Shown: in pieces, positions 32,795 through 42,708 of the stretch
How positions within the stretch are numbered: the stretch's first letter is position 1
Layout of the letters: every line of letters starts with the position of its first letter
Source of the DNA: Maribacter polysaccharolyticus
Lineage (GTDB): Bacteria; Bacteroidota; Bacteroidia; Flavobacteriales; Flavobacteriaceae
DNA: 64,000 bases
Direction of reading: 5' to 3'
Assembly (NCBI RefSeq): GCF_028882255.1
Contig: NZ_JARBUY010000003.1
Location: 333,018-397,017, forward strand
Translations under genes and position numbers: made by a program
The notes under the pieces: generated by a model
What the model saw: the letters and a program-made list of their open reading frames with translations, nothing else
The model's database searches: none
Told to the model about the DNA's origin: nothing

Positions 32795-33151
32795 ATGTCA
32801 AAAAACCAAAAAGATGTAATCAAATTGCACGGAAACCAAGATCCGAACGCTAAGATAGAGGCGATAAAAAATCTGATTTTTGGGGAGAATATGGAGGCCT
32901 ACGAGGCCGAGTTCGAAGCTTTAAAAGAGGACATTCTCAATAAGAAGAAGATTTTGGAGGATTTGATCGAGGAGGTTGGGTCGGACTTGAGAAAATCATT
33001 GGATGATGTTTCCACCGACGTTAATATCAGGATTACGGACTTGGAGAAAAGTTTGGAAACCAAGTTGGAAGATTTAGAGGAAAAAAGTATCGCAAAGGAT
33101 ACCCTAGGGAAATTGCTCATCGAATTGGGTGAGAAAGTCAGTAGTAAATAA
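32795..33151 (+). CDS. Small coiled-coil protein of the GTPase cassette
   Basis: 118 residues, no signal peptide, strongly charged. About residues 35-100 show heptad patterns (EALKEDILNKKKILEDLIEE, ITDLEKSLETKLEDLEEK), so it is probably a dimeric coiled coil. The N-terminal IKNLIFGENMEAYEAEF (25-41) and the C-terminal DTLGKLLIELGEKV (102-115) look like capping motifs. From memory, proteins with this LIFGE start and LG-L-IELG end occur beside OmpA-like proteins in other phyla, but I cannot verify that here. It is the first gene of the cassette, 20 bases before the next. A scaffold or adaptor role is inferred. Confidence 0.75.
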   Translation: MSKNQKDVIKLHGNQDPNAKIEAIKNLIFGENMEAYEAEFEALKEDILNKKKILEDLIEEVGSDLRKSLDDVSTDVNIRITDLEKSLETKLEDLEEKSIAKDTLGKLLIELGEKVSSK

Positions 33152-33171
33152 TAGTTCCAACGGCAATTCGA

Positions 33172-34023
33172 ATGAGCGAAAAAGACAGATTGGAAATCCT
33201 TAAGGATATTTTGTTCACCGAGGATCGGCAAGATATTGATAAAATCGCCGAGCGTATCGAATTGTTGGAAGAAGCCTATAGCAATAGGGAGAAATTTGCC
33301 GCTAAGGTAGATCCCATCGTAGAAAGGCAGTTAAAGGAATATACCAAGAACATACCCCAAAGCCTGGGCCCCGTAATTACCGAGACCTTAAAACGGGAAA
33401 TAAATAACCACAAAGACGAGGTCGTAGATGCCATTTATCCCATTCTTGGTAAGATGGTCAAAAAATATGTCGCCCAAGAAATCCGGGTCCTATCGGAAAA
33501 AATAGACAATCAGTTGAGTTTTATTTCTGCTTGGAAAAGAAAGATAAGATCGTTCTTTTGGGGAAGAAATGAAAAAAAACTATTGCTCGACGATCTTGCT
33601 TCCGGTAAAATTCAACAGGTATTTTTGATAGAAAGGGATTCGGGCCTTTTAAAAGCGGCGTATTCCAAAACCGAAACCATAGATGAAGAGATGATATCCG
33701 GAATGCTCACCGCCATTAAGTCCTTTGTCGAGGATGCCTTCAATCAAAAAAACCAAGAGCTCGAACTTATTGAATATGAGTTGTATAATATCCATATCCA
33801 AAGTTTTGTCAACTATTATGTCGCGGTTGTAATCTCCGGGGCCTATGGTTTAAAAACAAAGGATGAGGTGCAAAATATCATTTTTGATTTTTACCATAAC
33901 TTTATGGAGATGAACCTTGATCTGATCTATACAAGCCGTCATCTGGAGCATCCGGTAGTTACCATAAGTACAGAACTCATTGAAAAAAAGCTAGCAGCAT
34001 ATTTTGGCAATACAAAGATCTAA
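33172..34023 (+). CDS. Cytoplasmic protein with a roadblock/longin-like C-terminal region
   Basis: 283 residues, no signal and no membrane segment. The N-terminal helix ILKDILFTEDRQDIDKIAER (10-29) resembles the LIFGE helix of the preceding protein. About residues 60-125 contain amphipathic helices (EVVDAIYPILGKMVKKYVA). About 147-245 read VFLIERDSGLLKAAY, MISGMLTAIKSFVEDAF and YYVAVVISG, the strand-helix-strand order of roadblock/longin-type domains. A similar arrangement forms the cytoplasmic half of some OmpA-family proteins, by memory. It directly precedes a small GTPase (20-base overlap). As MglB (a roadblock protein) is the GAP of MglA, a role as regulator or partner of this GTPase is a reasonable inference. 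Confidence 0.75.
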   Translation: MSEKDRLEILKDILFTEDRQDIDKIAERIELLEEAYSNREKFAAKVDPIVERQLKEYTKNIPQSLGPVITETLKREINNHKDEVVDAIYPILGKMVKKYVAQEIRVLSEKIDNQLSFISAWKRKIRSFFWGRNEKKLLLDDLASGKIQQVFLIERDSGLLKAAYSKTETIDEEMISGMLTAIKSFVEDAFNQKNQELELIEYELYNIHIQSFVNYYVAVVISGAYGLKTKDEVQNIIFDFYHNFMEMNLDLIYTSRHLEHPVVTISTELIEKKLAAYFGNTKI

Positions 34024-34507
34024 GAAAATCGTGATCCTCGGTCATTTTGGCGTTGGCAAAACATCATTGATCCGGAGGTTTGTTGAAAATAGTTTTTCAG
34101 ATAAATACCAGGTTACCATCGGTGTGCATATCTCCAAAAAAGTTGTTGAGGTAGGTCCTGAAGAATCGGTGTCACTTATTATATGGGATCTGGAAGGTAC
34201 CGATGAAGTGCAAATGATCCGGCAAGCCTATTTATTGGGTACCCATGGGGTGGTCTTTGTTTTCGATATCAGTAGGCCTTCAACGTTTCAGGACCTAAAC
34301 CGTGATTTAAGAATAGTTGCGGATAAAATGCCTGAAACCCCTTTGGTCGTCGTAGGCAACAAGAAAGACCTGGCCATAGAGGATGAACTTCAAATACTTC
34401 TGGATGACAACGATATCAAGGCCGATTATTTGACCAGTGCAAAAACAGGGGATGATGTCAATGAAATGTTCACCCATTTAGCAATGTTATTGAATGGCCA
34501 CTCTTAA
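34004..34507 (+). CDS. Rab/Ras-like small GTPase
   Basis: 167 residues. The five GTPase motifs are present: P-loop GHFGVGKTS (13-21), switch I Thr in VTIGV (Thr38), DLEG (62-65) for G3, NKKD for G4 and TSAK for G5. The latter two are as in eukaryotic Rab proteins. The residue after the G3 Gly is Thr66, where Ras/Rab have the catalytic Gln, so intrinsic hydrolysis should be low. The start is TTG at 34004, inside the end of the previous gene; the only nearby alternative (GTG at 34030) would delete the first strand. No lipid-modification Cys is seen at the C-terminus. It is coupled to the sensor kinase gene by a 14-base overlap. Confidence 0.9.
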   Translation: MAIQRSKKIVILGHFGVGKTSLIRRFVENSFSDKYQVTIGVHISKKVVEVGPEESVSLIIWDLEGTDEVQMIRQAYLLGTHGVVFVFDISRPSTFQDLNRDLRIVADKMPETPLVVVGNKKDLAIEDELQILLDDNDIKADYLTSAKTGDDVNEMFTHLAMLLNGHS

Positions 34508-36026
34508 ACAATACAGGGAACAATACATTAGCCGGAATGTTCAGTTTGTCGTCATTGATTTGGATGGTAGGGTACTGGAAAGCGATCGGGTATTTTTAGC
34601 CATAAATCCAGGCGATTTTATTTACGATGTGCATCCGTTCTTTGCATCCTATGCTTCCATTTTGGAAACGAAGGAAGGATCGGTTACCTATAATGGTGTG
34701 CATCTTGGGGTTGCGGGCCAAAATTTCATTACCGACGTTGGTATGATCAATAAAGGGAACCATATCCTTCTGGTCATAAACGATCTTACCGAACACTATA
34801 CGTCCTTGCAAAAAATAGCCCAAGCAAGGAACGAATCGATAATAAATTCCGAATTGGTCGTTCTGAAAAATCTGGAATTGGAAGAAAGGGAACGATTTAA
34901 AAATACCTTTATCCGGAACTTCAGCCATGAACTTAGAAATCCATTGACCAGCATTGTTTCGATTACCAACCTTCTCGAAAAAAGCCAATTGGACAGGGAA
35001 CAAAGTCAAATGGTCGATTTCCTTAAAGAATCGAATGCCCACTTAAAATTGTTGCTCGAAGATATCATGAGCATCAGTATGATCGCTTCCGGAAAGTTGA
35101 TTTTACGCCATAAAGTATTCAACCTGATAAGCTTACTTGAACTCATTGCGTTTACCTATGGGTCGAAAACCAAAGGAACGCCGATTCGATTCGACCTGGA
35201 TTATGATCGTAGGATCCCGGAATATATCGAGGGGGATCGTATACGTATATTCCAAATCTTGACGAATTTACTGGATAATGCCTTGAAATTCACCGAGGAA
35301 GGTAGTATCGCCCTAAAGGTATCACTCAATCAAAAAAGGGCCAATAAAGTGAGCTTGCGATTCGAAGTTTCCGACACTGGGATCGGTATTCCCTTGGAAA
35401 AGACAAAGGCAATATTCGAGAGTTTTACACAATTGGAGGAAGAAGGCAAAAAGGAAGGTGCTGGTTTGGGACTTTCCATAGTCAAAGGTTTACTGGGATT
35501 GATGGGGAGTGAGGTCTATGTACGATCGGAATTGGGCAAGGGATCCTCCTTTTATTTTGATGTCACCCTGACCTATGCGTTGGACCTGGCGTCCAAACCC
35601 TTGAAAAAAAACAAAAAGGAACTCCTTGACCTGCGAAAGCCCAAATCAAATAAGAAATATAGGGTATTGTTGGTTGAGGATGACGAACGGACACAAATGG
35701 TGCTGTTCAAGACCCTAATGGATACCGATATGTTTTATATTGATCTGGTCAATGACGGGGCATTGGTTTTGGAAACGGTAATCAACAATCCCTATGACGT
35801 GATTCTTATGGATGTTGATCTTCCCAATGTACCCGGTGATCAAATAACAAGGTTGATACGCGATTTCCCCTTTAAGGATATAAAGAAAATCCCCATTATA
35901 GGGGTTACGGCCAATGTCTTTGAGGAAGATATGGACGCTTATTTAAAAATGGGGATGAACGCCGTGGTTACAAAGCCATTTGATTTCAACGAACTCCTTG
36001 AGGCCATTGTTAAATCGCTACGGTAA
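34494..36026 (+). CDS. Hybrid sensor histidine kinase with receiver domain
   Basis: 510 residues without membrane segments. Residues 1-100 form a PAS-like sensor, followed by a helical linker. HisKA has phospho-acceptor His145 in FSHELRNP. The HATPase domain (about 250-370) has LLDNALKFTEEG (N-box), DTGIGIP (G1) and GAGLGLSIVKGL (G2). The receiver domain (about 387-508) has EDDE and Asp440 in LMDVDLP, with Lys in VTKPFDF. It is a soluble hybrid kinase, so it probably reads a cytoplasmic cue, possibly the GTPase state. There is no output domain, so phosphate must pass on to an unlinked partner. It is the last gene of the cassette. Confidence 0.93.
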   Translation: MATLKQYREQYISRNVQFVVIDLDGRVLESDRVFLAINPGDFIYDVHPFFASYASILETKEGSVTYNGVHLGVAGQNFITDVGMINKGNHILLVINDLTEHYTSLQKIAQARNESIINSELVVLKNLELEERERFKNTFIRNFSHELRNPLTSIVSITNLLEKSQLDREQSQMVDFLKESNAHLKLLLEDIMSISMIASGKLILRHKVFNLISLLELIAFTYGSKTKGTPIRFDLDYDRRIPEYIEGDRIRIFQILTNLLDNALKFTEEGSIALKVSLNQKRANKVSLRFEVSDTGIGIPLEKTKAIFESFTQLEEEGKKEGAGLGLSIVKGLLGLMGSEVYVRSELGKGSSFYFDVTLTYALDLASKPLKKNKKELLDLRKPKSNKKYRVLLVEDDERTQMVLFKTLMDTDMFYIDLVNDGALVLETVINNPYDVILMDVDLPNVPGDQITRLIRDFPFKDIKKIPIIGVTANVFEEDMDAYLKMGMNAVVTKPFDFNELLEAIVKSLR

Positions 36027-36249
36027 ACGCCCCTTAACCGTCAACTGCGTTTATCCGTTTGTTGTATAGGTAGTTTTTTAAATAACAATATCAGAAAAAA
36101 CCTACAAAAATGTATTTCGTCGATGAAATAAGGTATTTCATCGATGTAATATTTTATTCGAAATTTTTGAGAGCAAAAAAAATCGGAGAGTGCCATAGAT
36201 TTGTCTTAACGGGAAATAAAGAGAACGATTTTACATGTAAAGGACACTT
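36027..36249. other. Gap holding the tandem operator-like palindromes
   Basis: The 223 bases after the kinase gene contain no recognisable terminator. Their most distinct content is the palindrome pair at 36115-36149. Confidence 0.4.
36115..36149. promoter_or_regulatory. Two operator-like palindromes, centres 21 bp apart
   Basis: TTTCGTCGATGAAA (36115-36128) and TTTCATCGATGTAA (36136-36149) are near-palindromes of the form TTTCATCGATGAAA, 21 bp centre to centre, two helical turns. Together TCGATGAAATA and TATTTCATCGA also form a perfect 11-bp inverted repeat around AGG. They lie about 100 bp before the 54-residue gene. A related site occurs at 49004. Confidence 0.5.
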
Positions 36250-36414
36250 ATGGATACATCGATTTTAATGGATATTCTTTTCATAATCAGTTTGATGGTT
36301 TTTTTAACGACCCTATATATCATCGTGCCGACAACCTTGCAAAAGCGTAAAACGATGGTAAAGTCAAGGGTGCTTCGAAACGATGTTGAAAGTACCATGA
36401 AAAAAAGAAAATGA
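36250..36414 (+). CDS. Putative 54-residue single-pass membrane protein
   Basis: The open frame from ATG 36250 to TGA 36414 encodes a hydrophobic helix (about residues 5-29) followed by a very basic tail with eleven Lys or Arg (QKRKTMVKSRVLRND, ending KKRK). This membrane-plus-positive-tail pattern obeys the positive-inside rule and is unlikely to be random, though the frame is short. It lies between the tandem palindromes and the structured RNA candidate. No family is recognised. Confidence 0.45.
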   Translation: MDTSILMDILFIISLMVFLTTLYIIVPTTLQKRKTMVKSRVLRNDVESTMKKRK

Positions 36415-36469
36415 AGCATCAAGTGCCGGATGGTAAGATGTACTTGTAGGCGCATTAAATAATACAGAT

Positions 36470-36641
36470 GGGTAAAATGCTATATAAACACTAACCGTTT
36501 TATCCAAACCGTCCACTGGAATTTGAATTGGTTGTTCCAGTGGACGTAAAAACCAACCAGGGTTTTGATAGTAATAGAGGTAATTTAGGTTTAACTAGTT
36601 TGGTTGGTTTAAAAAGGCCCTGAATACAGGGCCTTTTTTTT
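36470..36641 (+). ncRNA. Candidate structured small RNA with four stem-loops
   Basis: Four successive inverted repeats. SL1 is GGGTAAAA/TTTTATCC (36470-36477, 36498-36505, one G-U). SL2 is GTCCACTGGAA/TTCCAGTGGAC (36511-36521, 36535-36545, perfect 11 bp). SL3 is AAACCAACCA/TGGTTGGTTT (36550-36559, 36601-36610, perfect 10 bp, 41-nt loop). SL4 is AAAGGCCCTG/CAGGGCCTTT (36613-36636) followed by more T, an intrinsic terminator. No reading frame of note crosses it. It may be an independent small RNA or the long 3' end of the 54-residue gene's transcript. I found no exact promoter, and no known family is recognised. Confidence 0.5.
36613..36641 (+). terminator. Intrinsic terminator of the structured RNA
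   Basis: The stem AAAGGCCCTG/CAGGGCCTTT with an AATA loop runs into eight T in total. It is the strongest terminator of this region. Confidence 0.88.
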
Positions 36642-37197
36642 AAAGAAGGAAAGATCGTTAAGGGGCTATAAACCTGTAATAAAAAGAAGATAAGCGCAAT
36701 TACATCAAATGGGGAAATCCCTGATATAAAATAAGTGATGGGTCAAAGTAATAGGGAAGAAGGGTTATTTGTGGGTTCGGTTTTTTTAGGAGATGTCTTA
36801 AATTTTGAATTACCCGTACGGGATTGCGAAGGAAAGGAGTTGTGTAATTGGGGTATCACGGTTATCGAACCATAAAATTGCTATGAAAAAGGAATACGGT
36901 AAGGGCTGTTGCTACTTTTAGGGATCATGAACCTGCTTTGTATATTCTAAAGCCCGCAGTAACCGGTTTTGATCGAATACGAAGAAAAGGAAGAAAGTAA
37001 AAAAGAATATAAAGGCTGAATTTCAAATTTGAATACATACTTGAGGTGATCCGAATAGGGGTTCAATTTCATGATGTAAGATGATGCGGATTGTGTTTGT
37101 GATGTTCCCCTCAGGGATAATACGGAAGAATTTTCGGTTATCCCTTTTTCTTTTTCCATAGGTTATTTTTAGTATTTTTGGGCTAAAGACCTTTTAC
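36642..37197. other. Intergenic region, no firm gene
   Basis: 556 bases before the ridA-like gene. The plus strand has a 45-codon frame at 36738-36875 (starts MGQSNREEGLFVG, ends VIEP) with protein-like composition but no family. The minus strand has a 70-codon frame ending at 36947 with low-complexity Ser-rich content. Neither is convincing. The -7 element of the next gene is at 37173. Confidence 0.3.
37173..37180 (+). promoter_or_regulatory. Candidate -7 element of the RidA-like gene
   Basis: TATTTTTG is an exact TAnnTTTG match 17 bases before the ATG. The -33 TTG is not clear. Confidence 0.4.
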
Positions 37198-39314: not shown

Positions 39315-40766
39315 ATGAATACAAAATATATCGATCTGATCGATCAAACGTTTGATTTTCCCCAAGAGGAGTTTACCCTTAGCAATGACAGTATCCAATT
39401 TCATGGTATTCCCTTGAAAGAACTGGTCGAAAAATACGGCAGTCCATTAAAATTCACTTATTTGCCCAAAATTTCGGATAATATTTTACGGGCCAAGAAT
39501 TGGTTTTCAAAAGCCATAGAAAAAAATGGGTACAAGGGAAAGTACCATTATTGCTATTGTACCAAAAGTTCCCATTTTCAGCATGTACTGCATGAAGCCC
39601 TTAAGAATGATATCCATATAGAGACTTCATCGGCTTTTGACATCAATATCATCGAGAACCTAAAGGAAAAGGGAAAATTAAAAGATGATGCCTACATCTT
39701 ATGCAACGGATTTAAGCGCGAACAGTACATAGAGAACATAGGTCGCCTTATCAATTCGGGGCATCGCAACTGTATTCCGATCATTGATAATTATGAGGAG
39801 ATCGATCTGTTGTCCGATGTTGTGGACGACAACTTTAAGGTTGGAATCAGGATCGCATCCGAAGAAGAGCCTAAATTCGAATTCTATACTTCGCGATTGG
39901 GGATAGGCTATAAGAATATCGTTCCCTTTTATGAAAACCAAATCAAAGAGAATGATAAGGTTGAGCTGAAGATGCTCCATTTTTTTATAAATACCGGTAT
40001 ACGGGACAATGCCTATTATTGGAACGAATTGGCCAAGTGTTTAAAGGTCTATGTGCGATTGAAGAAAATGTGTCCTTCTCTCGATAGCCTTAACATTGGG
40101 GGTGGTTTTCCGATAAAGAACTCCTTGGCTTTTGAGTATGATTATGAGTATATGGTCGATGAGATCATTAATCAGATCAATATCGCATGCCAGGAGGCCG
40201 AGGTACCCGTTCCCCATATCTTTACCGAATTCGGTAGCTTTACCGTTGGCGAGAGCGGTGGTGCCATTTATGAGATCCTCTATCAGAAACAACAGAATGA
40301 TAGGGAAAAATGGAATATGATAGATTCATCCTTTATTACTACCTTACCCGATACTTGGGCCATAAATAAACGATTTATCATGTTGCCGATCAACCGATGG
40401 AACGATGAATATGAGCGGGTCCTTTTGGGCGGACTCACATGTGATAGTGATGACTATTACAATAGTGAACAGAATAGGAACGCCATTTATTTACCCAAAT
40501 ACAGTAAAAGTAAGCCCCTTTATATAGGTTTCTTCAATACCGGGGCATATCAAGATTCCATTGGGGGTGTTGGGGGACTGCAGCATTGCCTTATACCTCA
40601 ACCCAAACACATTATCATCGATAGGGATGAAAATGGTGAGCTAACAACAACCCTGTTCAAGCCTCAGCAAAAAGCCGAGCAAATGTTACAGATATTGGGA
40701 TATGAAACCAAGGTGCCTGAAAAAATCACCGAAGAGGTACTTAACGAAATGACAATGCCTTTATAA
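39315..40766 (+). CDS. speA: Arginine decarboxylase (PLP fold type III)
   Basis: 483 residues of the alanine racemase/ornithine decarboxylase-like barrel. PLP Lys84 lies in YCTKSS, the glycine loop GGGFPIK near residue 265 binds the cofactor phosphate, and the dimer-interface Cys is in GLTCDSDD. The sequence is of the Bacteroidota type annotated as arginine decarboxylase. It would turn arginine into agmatine and CO2. Agmatinase is the next gene, 33 bases on, which strongly supports the substrate. It is much shorter than the 630-residue proteobacterial SpeA, as expected for this subgroup; another basic amino acid is possible. Confidence 0.85.
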   Translation: MNTKYIDLIDQTFDFPQEEFTLSNDSIQFHGIPLKELVEKYGSPLKFTYLPKISDNILRAKNWFSKAIEKNGYKGKYHYCYCTKSSHFQHVLHEALKNDIHIETSSAFDINIIENLKEKGKLKDDAYILCNGFKREQYIENIGRLINSGHRNCIPIIDNYEEIDLLSDVVDDNFKVGIRIASEEEPKFEFYTSRLGIGYKNIVPFYENQIKENDKVELKMLHFFINTGIRDNAYYWNELAKCLKVYVRLKKMCPSLDSLNIGGGFPIKNSLAFEYDYEYMVDEIINQINIACQEAEVPVPHIFTEFGSFTVGESGGAIYEILYQKQQNDREKWNMIDSSFITTLPDTWAINKRFIMLPINRWNDEYERVLLGGLTCDSDDYYNSEQNRNAIYLPKYSKSKPLYIGFFNTGAYQDSIGGVGGLQHCLIPQPKHIIIDRDENGELTTTLFKPQQKAEQMLQILGYETKVPEKITEEVLNEMTMPL

Positions 40767-40799
40767 GGATACTAAAAACAATAAATCAATTTTAAAAAA

Positions 40800-41744
40800 A
40801 TGGGTACAATAAAGAATTATGCGGGTATTACCGATGAATTCGCACAATTGGAAACTGCAAAGGTAATTTTGATCCCTGTTCCTTATGATGGGACAAGCAC
40901 TTGGGGGAAAGGGTCGGATAAAGGTCCGGACGCCTTCTTGAATGCCTCGGAGAATATGGAATTGTATGATATTGAAACCGATTCCGAAGTGTATAAACAA
41001 GGCATACACTTGACAAAGCCGGTAACCGAAAACGATTCTCCCGAAACAATGGTCAACGCGGTTCATAAAATAACCAAAGAGTACATAAAACGTAACAAAT
41101 TCGTTACCCTTTTTGGGGGTGAGCATTCCATTTCAATAGGAAGTATCAAGGCGTTCAATGAATGTTTTGACAACCTTACCGTTTTACATATCGATGCGCA
41201 CGCCGATCTACGGGAATCTTATAACGGTTCGACCTGCAATCATGCCTGCGCGGTACATGAAGCCAGTCAATCAACGAATTTGATCCAAGTGGGCATACGT
41301 TCGATGGATGCCATTGAAAAGACCTTTATGGATGAGGAAAAGACCTTTTTCGCCCATGACATGGTCAATGACGAATATTGGATGGATAAGGTCATCGACC
41401 TAATGACCGAGAACGTGTTCATCACTTTTGATCTCGATGCCTTGGATCCGTCCATTCTCCCATCAACGGGGACCCCTGAGCCAGGGGGACTGTTCTGGTA
41501 TGAAACACTGGAATTCCTAAAGCAGGTATTTGAGGAAAAGAATGTGGTAGGGTTTGATATTGTTGAACTATGCCCCAATCCCGAAGATAAATCATCGGAT
41601 TTTCTGGCGGCCAAGTTGTATTATAAAATGTTAAGCTATAAATTCATGGGCGAAGATGTCGGTGATGAGTATGACAATACCTATGATGTGAATTATAAAT
41701 CGGGGAACAATGCCCAATCAAAATTTGAAGATGACGAAGACTAA
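40800..41744 (+). CDS. speB: Agmatinase (ureohydrolase family)
   Basis: 314 residues with the binuclear manganese motifs GGEHSIS, HIDAHADLR and FDLDALDPS. SGAP-type gating sequences are replaced by STGTPEPGG, as in agmatinases. It should hydrolyse agmatine to putrescine and urea. The C-terminal 35 residues form an acidic tail (GEDVGDEYDN, KFEDDED). It follows the arginine decarboxylase gene and overlaps the deoxyhypusine-synthase-like gene by 14 bases, so the three are co-translated. Confidence 0.93.
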   Translation: MGTIKNYAGITDEFAQLETAKVILIPVPYDGTSTWGKGSDKGPDAFLNASENMELYDIETDSEVYKQGIHLTKPVTENDSPETMVNAVHKITKEYIKRNKFVTLFGGEHSISIGSIKAFNECFDNLTVLHIDAHADLRESYNGSTCNHACAVHEASQSTNLIQVGIRSMDAIEKTFMDEEKTFFAHDMVNDEYWMDKVIDLMTENVFITFDLDALDPSILPSTGTPEPGGLFWYETLEFLKQVFEEKNVVGFDIVELCPNPEDKSSDFLAAKLYYKMLSYKFMGEDVGDEYDNTYDVNYKSGNNAQSKFEDDED

Positions 41745-42708
41745 AGGAGCTATTTCCGAATTTATCGAGAAATACTATCTGCATTTCAATGCCGCGGCAT
41801 TGGTTGATGCGGCCAAAGGGTATGAGGAGCAATTGCAACAGGGTTCCAAAATGCTGGTGTCCTTGGCCGGGGCAATGAGTACTGCGGAATTGGGTAAGAT
41901 CTTTGCCGAAATGATCCGTCAGGATAAAGTACAGATCATATCGTGTACCGGTGCCAATTTGGAAGAGGATATCATGAATCTGGTGGCCCATTCCCATTAT
42001 AAAAGGGTGCCGGAATATCGAGACTTGACCCCCCAGGATGAATGGGCTTTATTGGAAAAAGGCCTTAATAGGGTTACGGATACCTGTATCCCTGAAGAAG
42101 AGGCTTTTCGAAGGTTGCAAGAACATATATTCAAGATCTGGCAAGAGGCCGAAGCGAAAGGGGAGCGGTATTTACCCCATGAGTACATGTACAAAATGTT
42201 GCTGTCCGGGGTATTGGAGGAATATTACGAAATAGACCTTAAAGATTCTTGGATGTACGCAGCGGCCGAAAAAAACCTCCCGATCGTCTGTCCTGGATGG
42301 GAAGATAGCACCATGGGCAACATTTTCGCTTCCTATGTTCTAAAAGGGGAGTTAAAGGCGAATACCATGAAATCGGGTATTGAATACATGACCTTCTTGG
42401 CCGATTGGTATACCGAAAATTCAAAAAACGGTATCGGCTTTTTCCAGATAGGAGGAGGTATAGCAGGCGATTTCCCTATATGTGTGGTGCCGATGTTGTA
42501 TCAGGATATGGAACGGACAGATACCCCATTTTGGAGCTATTTTTGCCAAATCAGTGATTCTACCACCAGTTATGGGTCGTATTCAGGTGCCGTACCCAAT
42601 GAAAAGATCACATGGGGCAAATTGGATATCAACACCCCGAAATTTATAATAGAAAGTGATGCGACCATTGTGGCACCATTAATTTTTGCTTATCTTTTAG
42701 ACATGTAA
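41731..42708 (+). CDS. Deoxyhypusine-synthase-like enzyme (probable bacterial polyamine aminobutyl transferase)
   Basis: 325 residues from the ATG at 41731, preferred over 41710 because it starts at the usual MTKTKGAISEFIEKYY. NAD-binding and active-site features of the family are present: SLAGAMSTA, ISCTGANLEEDI and the catalytic Lys297 in WGKL, matching WGKI of eukaryotic enzymes. Bacteria lack eIF5A, so the aminobutyl group must go to another amine. Homospermidine synthases are known to have evolved from this family, and putrescine is made by the two genes upstream. Homospermidine or a related polyamine is thus the likely product, by inference. Confidence 0.88.
   Translation: MTKTKGAISEFIEKYYLHFNAAALVDAAKGYEEQLQQGSKMLVSLAGAMSTAELGKIFAEMIRQDKVQIISCTGANLEEDIMNLVAHSHYKRVPEYRDLTPQDEWALLEKGLNRVTDTCIPEEEAFRRLQEHIFKIWQEAEAKGERYLPHEYMYKMLLSGVLEEYYEIDLKDSWMYAAAEKNLPIVCPGWEDSTMGNIFASYVLKGELKANTMKSGIEYMTFLADWYTENSKNGIGFFQIGGGIAGDFPICVVPMLYQDMERTDTPFWSYFCQISDSTTSYGSYSGAVPNEKITWGKLDINTPKFIIESDATIVAPLIFAYLLDM

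Follow-up and report, generated by a model that had tools for sequence, protein, structure and literature searches.

What does a Rab-like GTPase do in a bacterium when its gene lies between those of a partly helical protein and a hybrid histidine kinase? The question was raised by four open reading frames (ORFs), here named A, B, G and K, in a 64-kb stretch of the genome (4.76 Mb) of Maribacter polysaccharolyticus (contig NZ_JARBUY010000003.1, positions 333,018–397,017), referred to below as the window. The four ORFs lie on the plus strand (Table 1), with a 20-base gap between A and B and overlaps of 20 bases between B and G and of 14 bases between G and K, as an earlier note made from the sequence had described. 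The cassette is a Group 1 Rup system, a type described by genome context in 2014 (PMC4316618), so the earlier note's suggestion that the coupling of a Rab-like GTPase to a hybrid kinase was undescribed had to be given up. The window cassette is a soluble variant of this system, and the C-terminal half of its B protein is predicted to form a cryptic roadblock-like domain. The best explanation, which we consider reasonably probable, is a soluble Group 1 Rup switch in which B serves as the dedicated partner of G and GTP-bound G acts on K.

Wuichet and Sogaard-Andersen (2014; PMC4316618) defined Rup as a family of prokaryotic Ras-like GTPases, within which they distinguished a Group 1; the published Rup set comprises 71 sequences. 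In that description, the GTPase gene of Group 1 has as neighbours genes for a coiled-coil protein, for a protein of unknown domain that often continues into a transmembrane (TM) helix and an OmpA domain, and for an output, typically GGDEF/EAL or a kinase, with an invariant N-terminal Gln. According to the same paper, the GTPase of this group lacks the Gln of the G3 motif, which is possibly supplied in trans, and experimental characterisation of any Rup GTPase was still lacking in 2014; the literature searched (titles and beginnings of abstracts) contained no later work on one. The window cassette has this neighbourhood, with A as the presumed coiled-coil protein and with the OmpA tail of B absent. 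The earlier note's view of G as Rab-like was well founded: G matched Pfam Ras (PF00071) at E 5.9e-31, and its best solved relatives in the PDB were chains of Rab35, Sec4, Rab5, Rab4 and Rab6. As in Group 1 Rup, it is a single-domain Ras-superfamily GTPase with motifs G1 to G5, its 167 amino acids (aa) falling below 240, and it was the sole strong Ras match in the genome of the window (2.2e-30; five others at 4e-7 to 9e-4). Conservation over 96 aligned GTPases covered the P-loop GKTSL, Thr, WDxxG, NKxD and SAK positions. At the G3 Gln position, Glu was found in 50 of the 96, Thr in 13 and Gln in 2, in agreement with the Gln-lacking Group 1 Rup.

The order A-B-G-K was kept in eight further congeneric genomes examined at length, one of them (L037) with an interrupted K, and in six relatives further away, whose B is as little as 32% identical; because it recurs in these genomes, it is not a product of chance. 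The kinase frame of L037 (L037:4834-6368) is split into 249 and 281 aa near an A-run, through a sequencing error or in reality. Of 60 relatives, counting the genome of the window itself, 15 had B: 10 of the 12 in the genus, three more in the family and two more in the order. The two genus genomes without a B match were 68% complete. A B profile matched 15 of 395 Bacteroidota genomes, again including its own; one of these (G128/L056, E 8e-4) had no B frame on inspection and was dropped as a B locus. Co-occurrence of G with B was strict among the 60 Bacteroidota genomes (15 of 15 B-positive genomes, E ≤8.6e-23, vs. 0 of 45 B-negative genomes); 38 of the B-negative genomes gave no G match and seven gave partial matches only (E 8e-5 to 9e-4, in frames of 465–508 aa).

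A named genome collection yielded at least 543 confirmed stretches, and 80 loci were taken from it. Since every locus was located by means of B, the presence of B in all of them is by construction. A B frame was present in 107 loci in total; one duplicate contig was removed, and in 95 of the remaining 106 the sequence extended at least 2 kb beyond B. A lay directly upstream of B in 91 of these 95 loci, and a profile of 30 A proteins detected an A relative in 102 of the 107. G stood beside B on the same strand in 80 of the 95 loci, elsewhere in the locus in nine, and was not seen in six. An output directly followed G in 75 of the 80 (68 with an N-terminal domain shared with K, seven of PP2C type), the remaining five having neither. 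The full order A-B-G-output was found in 73 of the 95 loci, from 11 named phyla and one unassigned contig, which bears out the earlier note's suspicion that the module may be widespread; the outcome that it had named as refuting, homologues of the four genes not occurring together elsewhere, did not arise. B itself was found in 12 named phyla, namely Bacteroidota, Acidobacteriota, Pseudomonadota, Thermodesulfobacteriota, Gemmatimonadota, Verrucomicrobiota, Planctomycetota, Coatesiibacteriota, Actinomycetota (one metagenome-assembled genome, MAG), Nitrospirota, Deferribacterota and Myxococcota, all of which except Actinomycetota had the full order. A search for G outside the locus covered ten genomes, four with a G already known in the locus and six informative; all six genomes whose B locus showed no G carried a Rup-like GTPase elsewhere.

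Most relatives of B are longer than the window protein. An OmpA domain was fused to B in 70 of 85 scanned B proteins, a closer association than the occurrence of relatives with OmpA-like proteins that the earlier note had mentioned. The scan took these 85 from the 107 and left out the window, eight congeners, six further short B proteins from relatives of the window, one duplicate, five proteins cut at contig ends, and L138. A 19-residue stretch with a mean hydropathy of at least 1.6 was present in 82 of the 88 B proteins of at least 400 aa. The B protein of the window and 14 relatives (L032-L043, L057, L058), with lengths of 267–286 aa, had no OmpA-length tail, and the hydropathy maxima of this short group did not exceed 1.23, except for L043 at 1.71. 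A strongly hydrophobic 19-residue stretch was likewise absent from A, B, G and K of the window (maxima 0.26, 1.19, 1.11 and 1.52, respectively), which fits soluble proteins. A GTPase tree was made from 76 of the 83 loci with an adjacent G, all found in the present searches. On this tree, the short soluble B needed two changes, one in the window group of 11 (SH-like approximate likelihood ratio test, SH-aLRT, 83, not firmly one clade) and one in a single Thermoleophilia MAG; a larger group including three OmpA-type rows of the same phylum reached an SH-aLRT of 99. Because the long form is widespread, we read the short soluble B as loss of the tail and not as the ancestral state, a reading that hinges on the root of the tree.

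The model of B was built with AlphaFold2 from 79 rows, consisting of the window and 78 of the 80 collection loci. It had a pLDDT of 77 overall, with block means of 73–91 over residues 131–250, and showed a helical first half followed by helix-strand-strand-helix-strand-strand-strand-helix at residues 134–254. The roadblock/LC7 fold has the order alpha-beta-beta-alpha-beta-beta-beta-alpha, which the predicted order of the B domain equals. When the model was compared to the PDB with Foldseek, 888 matches were obtained at E up to 10, 20 of them at ≤0.001. The 50 listed matches comprised entries of AP1/AP2/AP4 adaptors (sigma/mu), COPI zeta, Rag, LAMTOR/Ragulator, TRAPP, Mon1-Ccz1, CPLANE/Fuzzy-Inturned, Ykt6 and Vamp7, together with two axonemal microtubule entries of about 100 residues, which we take to be roadblock light chains. 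PAS, LOV and PYP entries were absent among these 50, unlike in the results for the N-terminal domain of K from the same pipeline. The roadblock/longin-like region that the earlier note placed in the 283-residue protein thus stood at the level of predicted strand and helix order and of fold matches, but was invisible by sequence. The roadblock-like fold of B appears to be new.

In the favoured explanation, G would be a Rab-like GTP switch whose state should depend on its partners, since it has no catalytic Gln of its own. B, a roadblock-like domain on a helical stalk, would form a dimer and contact G in the way MglB contacts MglA, serving as a scaffold and as GTPase-activating protein (GAP) or guanine nucleotide exchange factor (GEF) for G. 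The state of the envelope is the likely input in most relatives, because there B continues via a membrane helix into the peptidoglycan-binding OmpA domain; in the window relatives, which lack this tail, the input would be cytosolic or come through A. We infer that the signal then runs from G to K: GTP-bound G would engage the PAS-fold domain of K and the Gln-bearing helix leading into its catalytic part, and this would alter autophosphorylation of K and, as a consequence, phosphate transfer to the receiver and from there to an unlinked partner. Elsewhere among bacteria, other enzymes carry the same effector domain. Alternatively, B might be a dimeric platform only, similar to LAMTOR/Ragulator, which tethers G near the envelope or A and has neither GAP nor GEF activity, the state of G being set by an unlinked factor. 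LAMTOR and the adaptor sigma and zeta subunits, which are scaffolds, are indeed among the fold matches of B, and the frequent OmpA fusion suits tethering. However, the window relatives keep A, B, G and K together without a tether, which suggests that B does more than anchor G at the envelope, and a platform-only B comes close to a sub-case of the favoured explanation; we consider it rather unlikely.

Evidence on the receiving side of the proposed switch came from K. The earlier note's description of K as a soluble hybrid kinase with a receiver was confirmed by Pfam matches to HisKA, HATPase_c and Response_reg and by the hydropathy values given above. Residues 1–98 are predicted to be a PAS domain by fold, Pfam PAS giving no match in the K protein of the window at E 1. 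The AlphaFold2 model of residues 1–150 (pLDDT 86, pTM 0.68) showed a PAS fold followed by a helix at residues 99–125; a 37-row alignment was poor for the window row, and the model, and with it the PAS assignment, rests on 17 rows of one sub-type. The seven Foldseek matches of this domain at ≤0.001 were all chains of one histidine kinase entry (VC2136), and the others among the 50 listed were mainly PAS, LOV, PYP and phytochrome entries, with a few others, including one outer-arm dynein chain.

A profile of the K-type N-terminal domain matched 88 ORFs in 82 of the 107 loci. The catalytic parts behind it were scanned in 66 of the 88 outputs, leaving out 15 Bacteroidota rows near the window or L044, one at a contig edge, one on a duplicate contig and five short frames, and kinases are under-counted in the result: HATPase_c 37, HisKA 32, receiver 19, Hpt 3, HD_5 (which we take to be of HD-GYP type) 11, Sigma54 5, GGDEF 3, Guanylate_cyc (class III cyclase) 3, EAL 1 and SpoIIE 1. 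One comparison of outputs used 45 hand-picked proteins; the residue counts in the helix refer to all 98 domain hits. Gln110 was kept in 90 of the 98 copies, consistent with the N-terminal output Gln of Group 1 Rup, and further conserved positions relative to it were +3 (Arg/Asn, 83/98), +4 (Glu/Asp/Asn, 84/98) and +7 (Leu/Ile, 95/98). These residues lie on one face of the helix, as would suit a docking or dimer surface. Because the catalytic parts behind it are exchangeable, the constant domain would be the part that receives the GTPase signal. An exchangeable effector domain of PAS type with this wider range of outputs appears to be new.

Some loci departed from this arrangement. Stand-alone copies of the PAS/Gln-helix domain, of approximately 130 aa, adjoined the GTPase in L133:8074-8466 and L134:5642-6049. 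A PP2C-like phosphatase followed the GTPase in place of an output with the N-terminal domain in L068, L073, L086, L087, L101, L106 and L108; the assignment to PP2C comes from Pfam for L073 and L108 and from resemblance to L073 for the remaining five. Six of these cassettes were from Gemmatimonadota and one from Acidobacteriota, with Arg (six) or Lys (one) at the G3 Gln position. Apparent tandem duplications were observed as two Ras-like GTPases with two N-domain frames in L080:8121-10962, and as two consecutive N-domain outputs in L088, L120 and L122.

Signalling could also run in the reverse direction, as suggested for conservons: K would sense through its PAS domain, its phosphorylation or Gln helix would act as a GAP on G, and GTP-bound G would be the output towards other targets. 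The PAS fold of K, often that of a sensor, suits such a role, and the authors of the 2014 study posited Group 2 MglA as the conservon output and a Gln acting in trans to Group 1 Rup (PMC4316618). Yet several of the enzymes that carry the effector domain (HD_5, GGDEF/EAL, class III cyclase, sigma-54 activator) are natural end points of signalling, and the seven PP2C cassettes do without it. Compensation of Gln between G3 and K was looked for and none was seen in the few informative pairs. All five G proteins next to Gln-less outputs (L067, L072, L104, L115, L126) also lacked Gln, the outputs kept Gln in the two loci where G has it (L075 and L082), and the seven PP2C cassettes had neither. These few cases weaken the 2014 proposal that a Gln of K completes the active site of G; catalysis in trans by this Gln was kept only within the reverse scheme, which we regard as improbable.

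Apart from the missing Gln compensation between G and K, several results weigh against a soluble switch with B as the roadblock partner of G. Gene pairing by itself does not show that B binds G. The pTM of the B model was 0.53. Its best Foldseek E was 8e-5, with TM scores of 0.19–0.67 normalised to the target and of 0.21–0.33 normalised to the whole query. The rmsd ranged from 2.5 to 16.6, with several superpositions above 10, and an MglB entry was absent among the 50 listed matches (of 888). The listing names entries and not domains, and we assume that the matched chains are those bearing longin or roadblock domains. Pfam Robl_LC7 had no match in the B protein of the window at E 1 or in 85 relatives at 0.001, the NCBIfam roadblock models had no match to B, and window B had neither a curated Pfam match over the cut-off nor an NCBIfam family match. 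Compared with the PDB by sequence, B gave no match, and a profile of the B alignment found no roadblock chain there; the top PDB match of another B profile, a TRAPP BET5 chain, was not significant at E 0.69. Against 23 MglB-type roadblock domains from cassette-bearing genomes, B reached hhalign P values of 0.023 (whole) and 0.028 (domain), lower than those of six controls (0.062–0.38) yet not significant. By sequence, B is thus not recognisable as a member of Roadblock/LC7, with no Robl_LC7 match and no significant profile similarity. Our confidence in the favoured explanation, and in the platform reading set out below, was lowered because of the several poor superpositions and the absence of an MglB entry. 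That the C-terminal half of B is another alpha/beta domain, its roadblock likeness being an artefact of a moderate AlphaFold2 model and a broad fold class, agrees with the mean pLDDT of 77, the pTM, the high rmsd of several matches, the lack of a significant sequence match, and the placing of longin and roadblock domains, which have features in common apart from other PAS-like folds, in the PAS-like fold class (PMC3521125), but seems quite improbable given that no PAS, LOV or PYP entry was among the 50 listed matches whereas the N-terminal domain of K gave mainly those, and that a printed 39-column profile alignment pairs, in our reading, the B stretch FLIERDSGLL to MISGMLTAI with the roadblock strand-turn-strand-helix.

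A wider reading suggests itself. Group 1 Rup, so far distinguished from MglA by the lack of a roadblock partner, would have one after all, namely B, usually fused to OmpA via a membrane helix, and together with the exchangeable effector domain this would amount to a general envelope-coupled G-protein platform, a tentative proposal whose chances we see as just short of even. Across a dozen phyla, such a platform would link the state of the envelope to kinases, cyclases, phosphatases, enzymes of c-di-GMP metabolism or transcription, and the window relatives would represent the platform freed from the envelope. Bacteria would then already possess a Rab-like GTPase paired with a longin/roadblock protein, a combination characteristic of eukaryotic trafficking. 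With B as roadblock partner, the two prokaryotic Ras-like branches, MglA and Rup, would rely on one kind of regulator, a point of relevance to the origin of the Rab/Rag-longin pairing. The effector domain shared by six catalytic classes (kinase, HD_5, GGDEF/EAL, class III cyclase, SpoIIE phosphatase, sigma-54 activator) would offer a handle on general bacterial G-protein input, and the soluble version of the window is convenient for purification.

Table 1. Features of the cassette and its 3' flank in the 64-kb window.
Feature	Position	Strand	Basis
Gene A, presumed coiled-coil protein of 118 aa; motif I-K/R-x-h-h-F-G conserved at the N-terminus	32795..33151	+	ORF call; profile of 30 A proteins
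Gene B, 283 aa, helical N-terminal part and predicted roadblock-like domain; without the TM and OmpA tail of most relatives	33172..34023	+	ORF call, model, relatives
Predicted roadblock-like domain of B, residues 134-254, order H-E-E-H-E-E-E-H	33571..33933	+	AlphaFold2 and Foldseek
Gene G, 167-aa Rab-like small GTPase (Group 1 Rup type), TTG start	34004..34507	+	Pfam, PDB matches, alignment
G3 motif WDLEGTDE of G; Thr66 at the catalytic Gln position of the Ras superfamily	34184..34207	+	Alignment of 96 GTPases
Gene K, 510-aa hybrid histidine kinase with receiver	34494..36026	+	ORF call, Pfam
Predicted PAS-fold N-terminal domain of K, residues 1-98, common to outputs of other catalytic classes	34494..34787	+	AlphaFold2, Foldseek, profile
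Helix of K, residues 99-125, following the PAS fold; conserved Gln110 at bases 34821-34823	34788..34868	+	Model; 98 domain copies
HisKA of K, residues 136-200, His145 in HELRNP motif	34899..35093	+	Pfam
HATPase_c of K, residues 247-358	35232..35567	+	Pfam
Receiver (Response_reg) of K, residues 391-505	35664..36008	+	Pfam
Terminator-like hairpin, 13 pairs, starting 92 bases past the end of K	36118..36146	+	Pattern match only

Analysis of A gave no curated Pfam match over the cut-off and no NCBIfam family match; its composition was 47% charged or polar, and an apolipoprotein match in Pfam was weak and sub-threshold. A and B (window 32795-33260) have a common N-terminal motif of the LR-x-LL-h-G type across phyla, with weak statistical support: hhalign gave P 2.5e-4 with motif-anchored windows (30 of A, 80 of B), a biased comparison in which 15 motif-less B rows were dropped. 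In the unanchored comparison, P was 0.0039 (reversed controls 0.041 and 0.047), and the motif was not used in the interpretation. Downstream of K, the hairpin pattern occurred at five sites in the region vs. 4.6 expected in shuffles, and approximately 1.2 kb (36027-37197) contained no frame above 74 aa and no Rfam match. Consecutive genes for an Orn/Arg-type decarboxylase, an arginase-family protein and a deoxyhypusine-synthase-family protein (39315-42708) possibly form a polyamine unit.

Compared to the published Group 1 Rup systems, the window cassette agrees in its four components and their neighbourhood, in G motifs that are Ras-like but lack the G3 Gln, in the N-terminal Gln of the output, and in having a histidine kinase, one of the published output types. 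It differs in that its B lacks the TM/OmpA tail. The B domain, called unknown in the 2014 paper, is predicted to be roadblock-like here, and HD_5, class III cyclase, sigma-54, SpoIIE and PP2C outputs were found in addition to the GGDEF/EAL and kinase outputs given as typical in its main text (PMC4316618).

MglA-MglB of Myxococcus and Thermus likewise combines a small GTPase gene with an adjacent gene for a roadblock-fold partner (a fold that is predicted in the case of B) and has two-component links. However, B has no Robl_LC7 match, has a long helical N-terminus and usually carries an OmpA tail, and G is Rab-like and lacks the G3 Gln that MglA uses (PMC4316618). Table 1 of the same paper lists coupling to MglB for 0 members of the Rup subclade vs. 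404 of the MglA subclade, and Robl_LC7 had no match anywhere in the genome of the window vs. matches in 15 of 20 other cassette genomes searched. The actinobacterial conservons (AGPS; CvnABCD) are also four-gene sets of a kinase, a roadblock protein, a protein of unknown function and a small GTPase, and set a precedent for kinase, roadblock and GTPase in a single pathway (PMC13343842). In contrast to the window cassette, the conservon kinase is membrane-spanning with an LPxR tail, a response regulator is not part of the set, CvnB is homologous to MglB, and CvnD belongs to Group 2 MglA (PMC4316618); A and B of the window match no curated Pfam or NCBIfam family, and K has a receiver and no strongly hydrophobic stretch. 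Compared with the eukaryotic Rab and Rag systems and their longin/roadblock regulators, the bacterial output differs in being a two-component or second-messenger enzyme; what is common to both is a Rab-like GTPase and a partner whose predicted fold finds TRAPP, Mon1-Ccz1 and LAMTOR among its matches.

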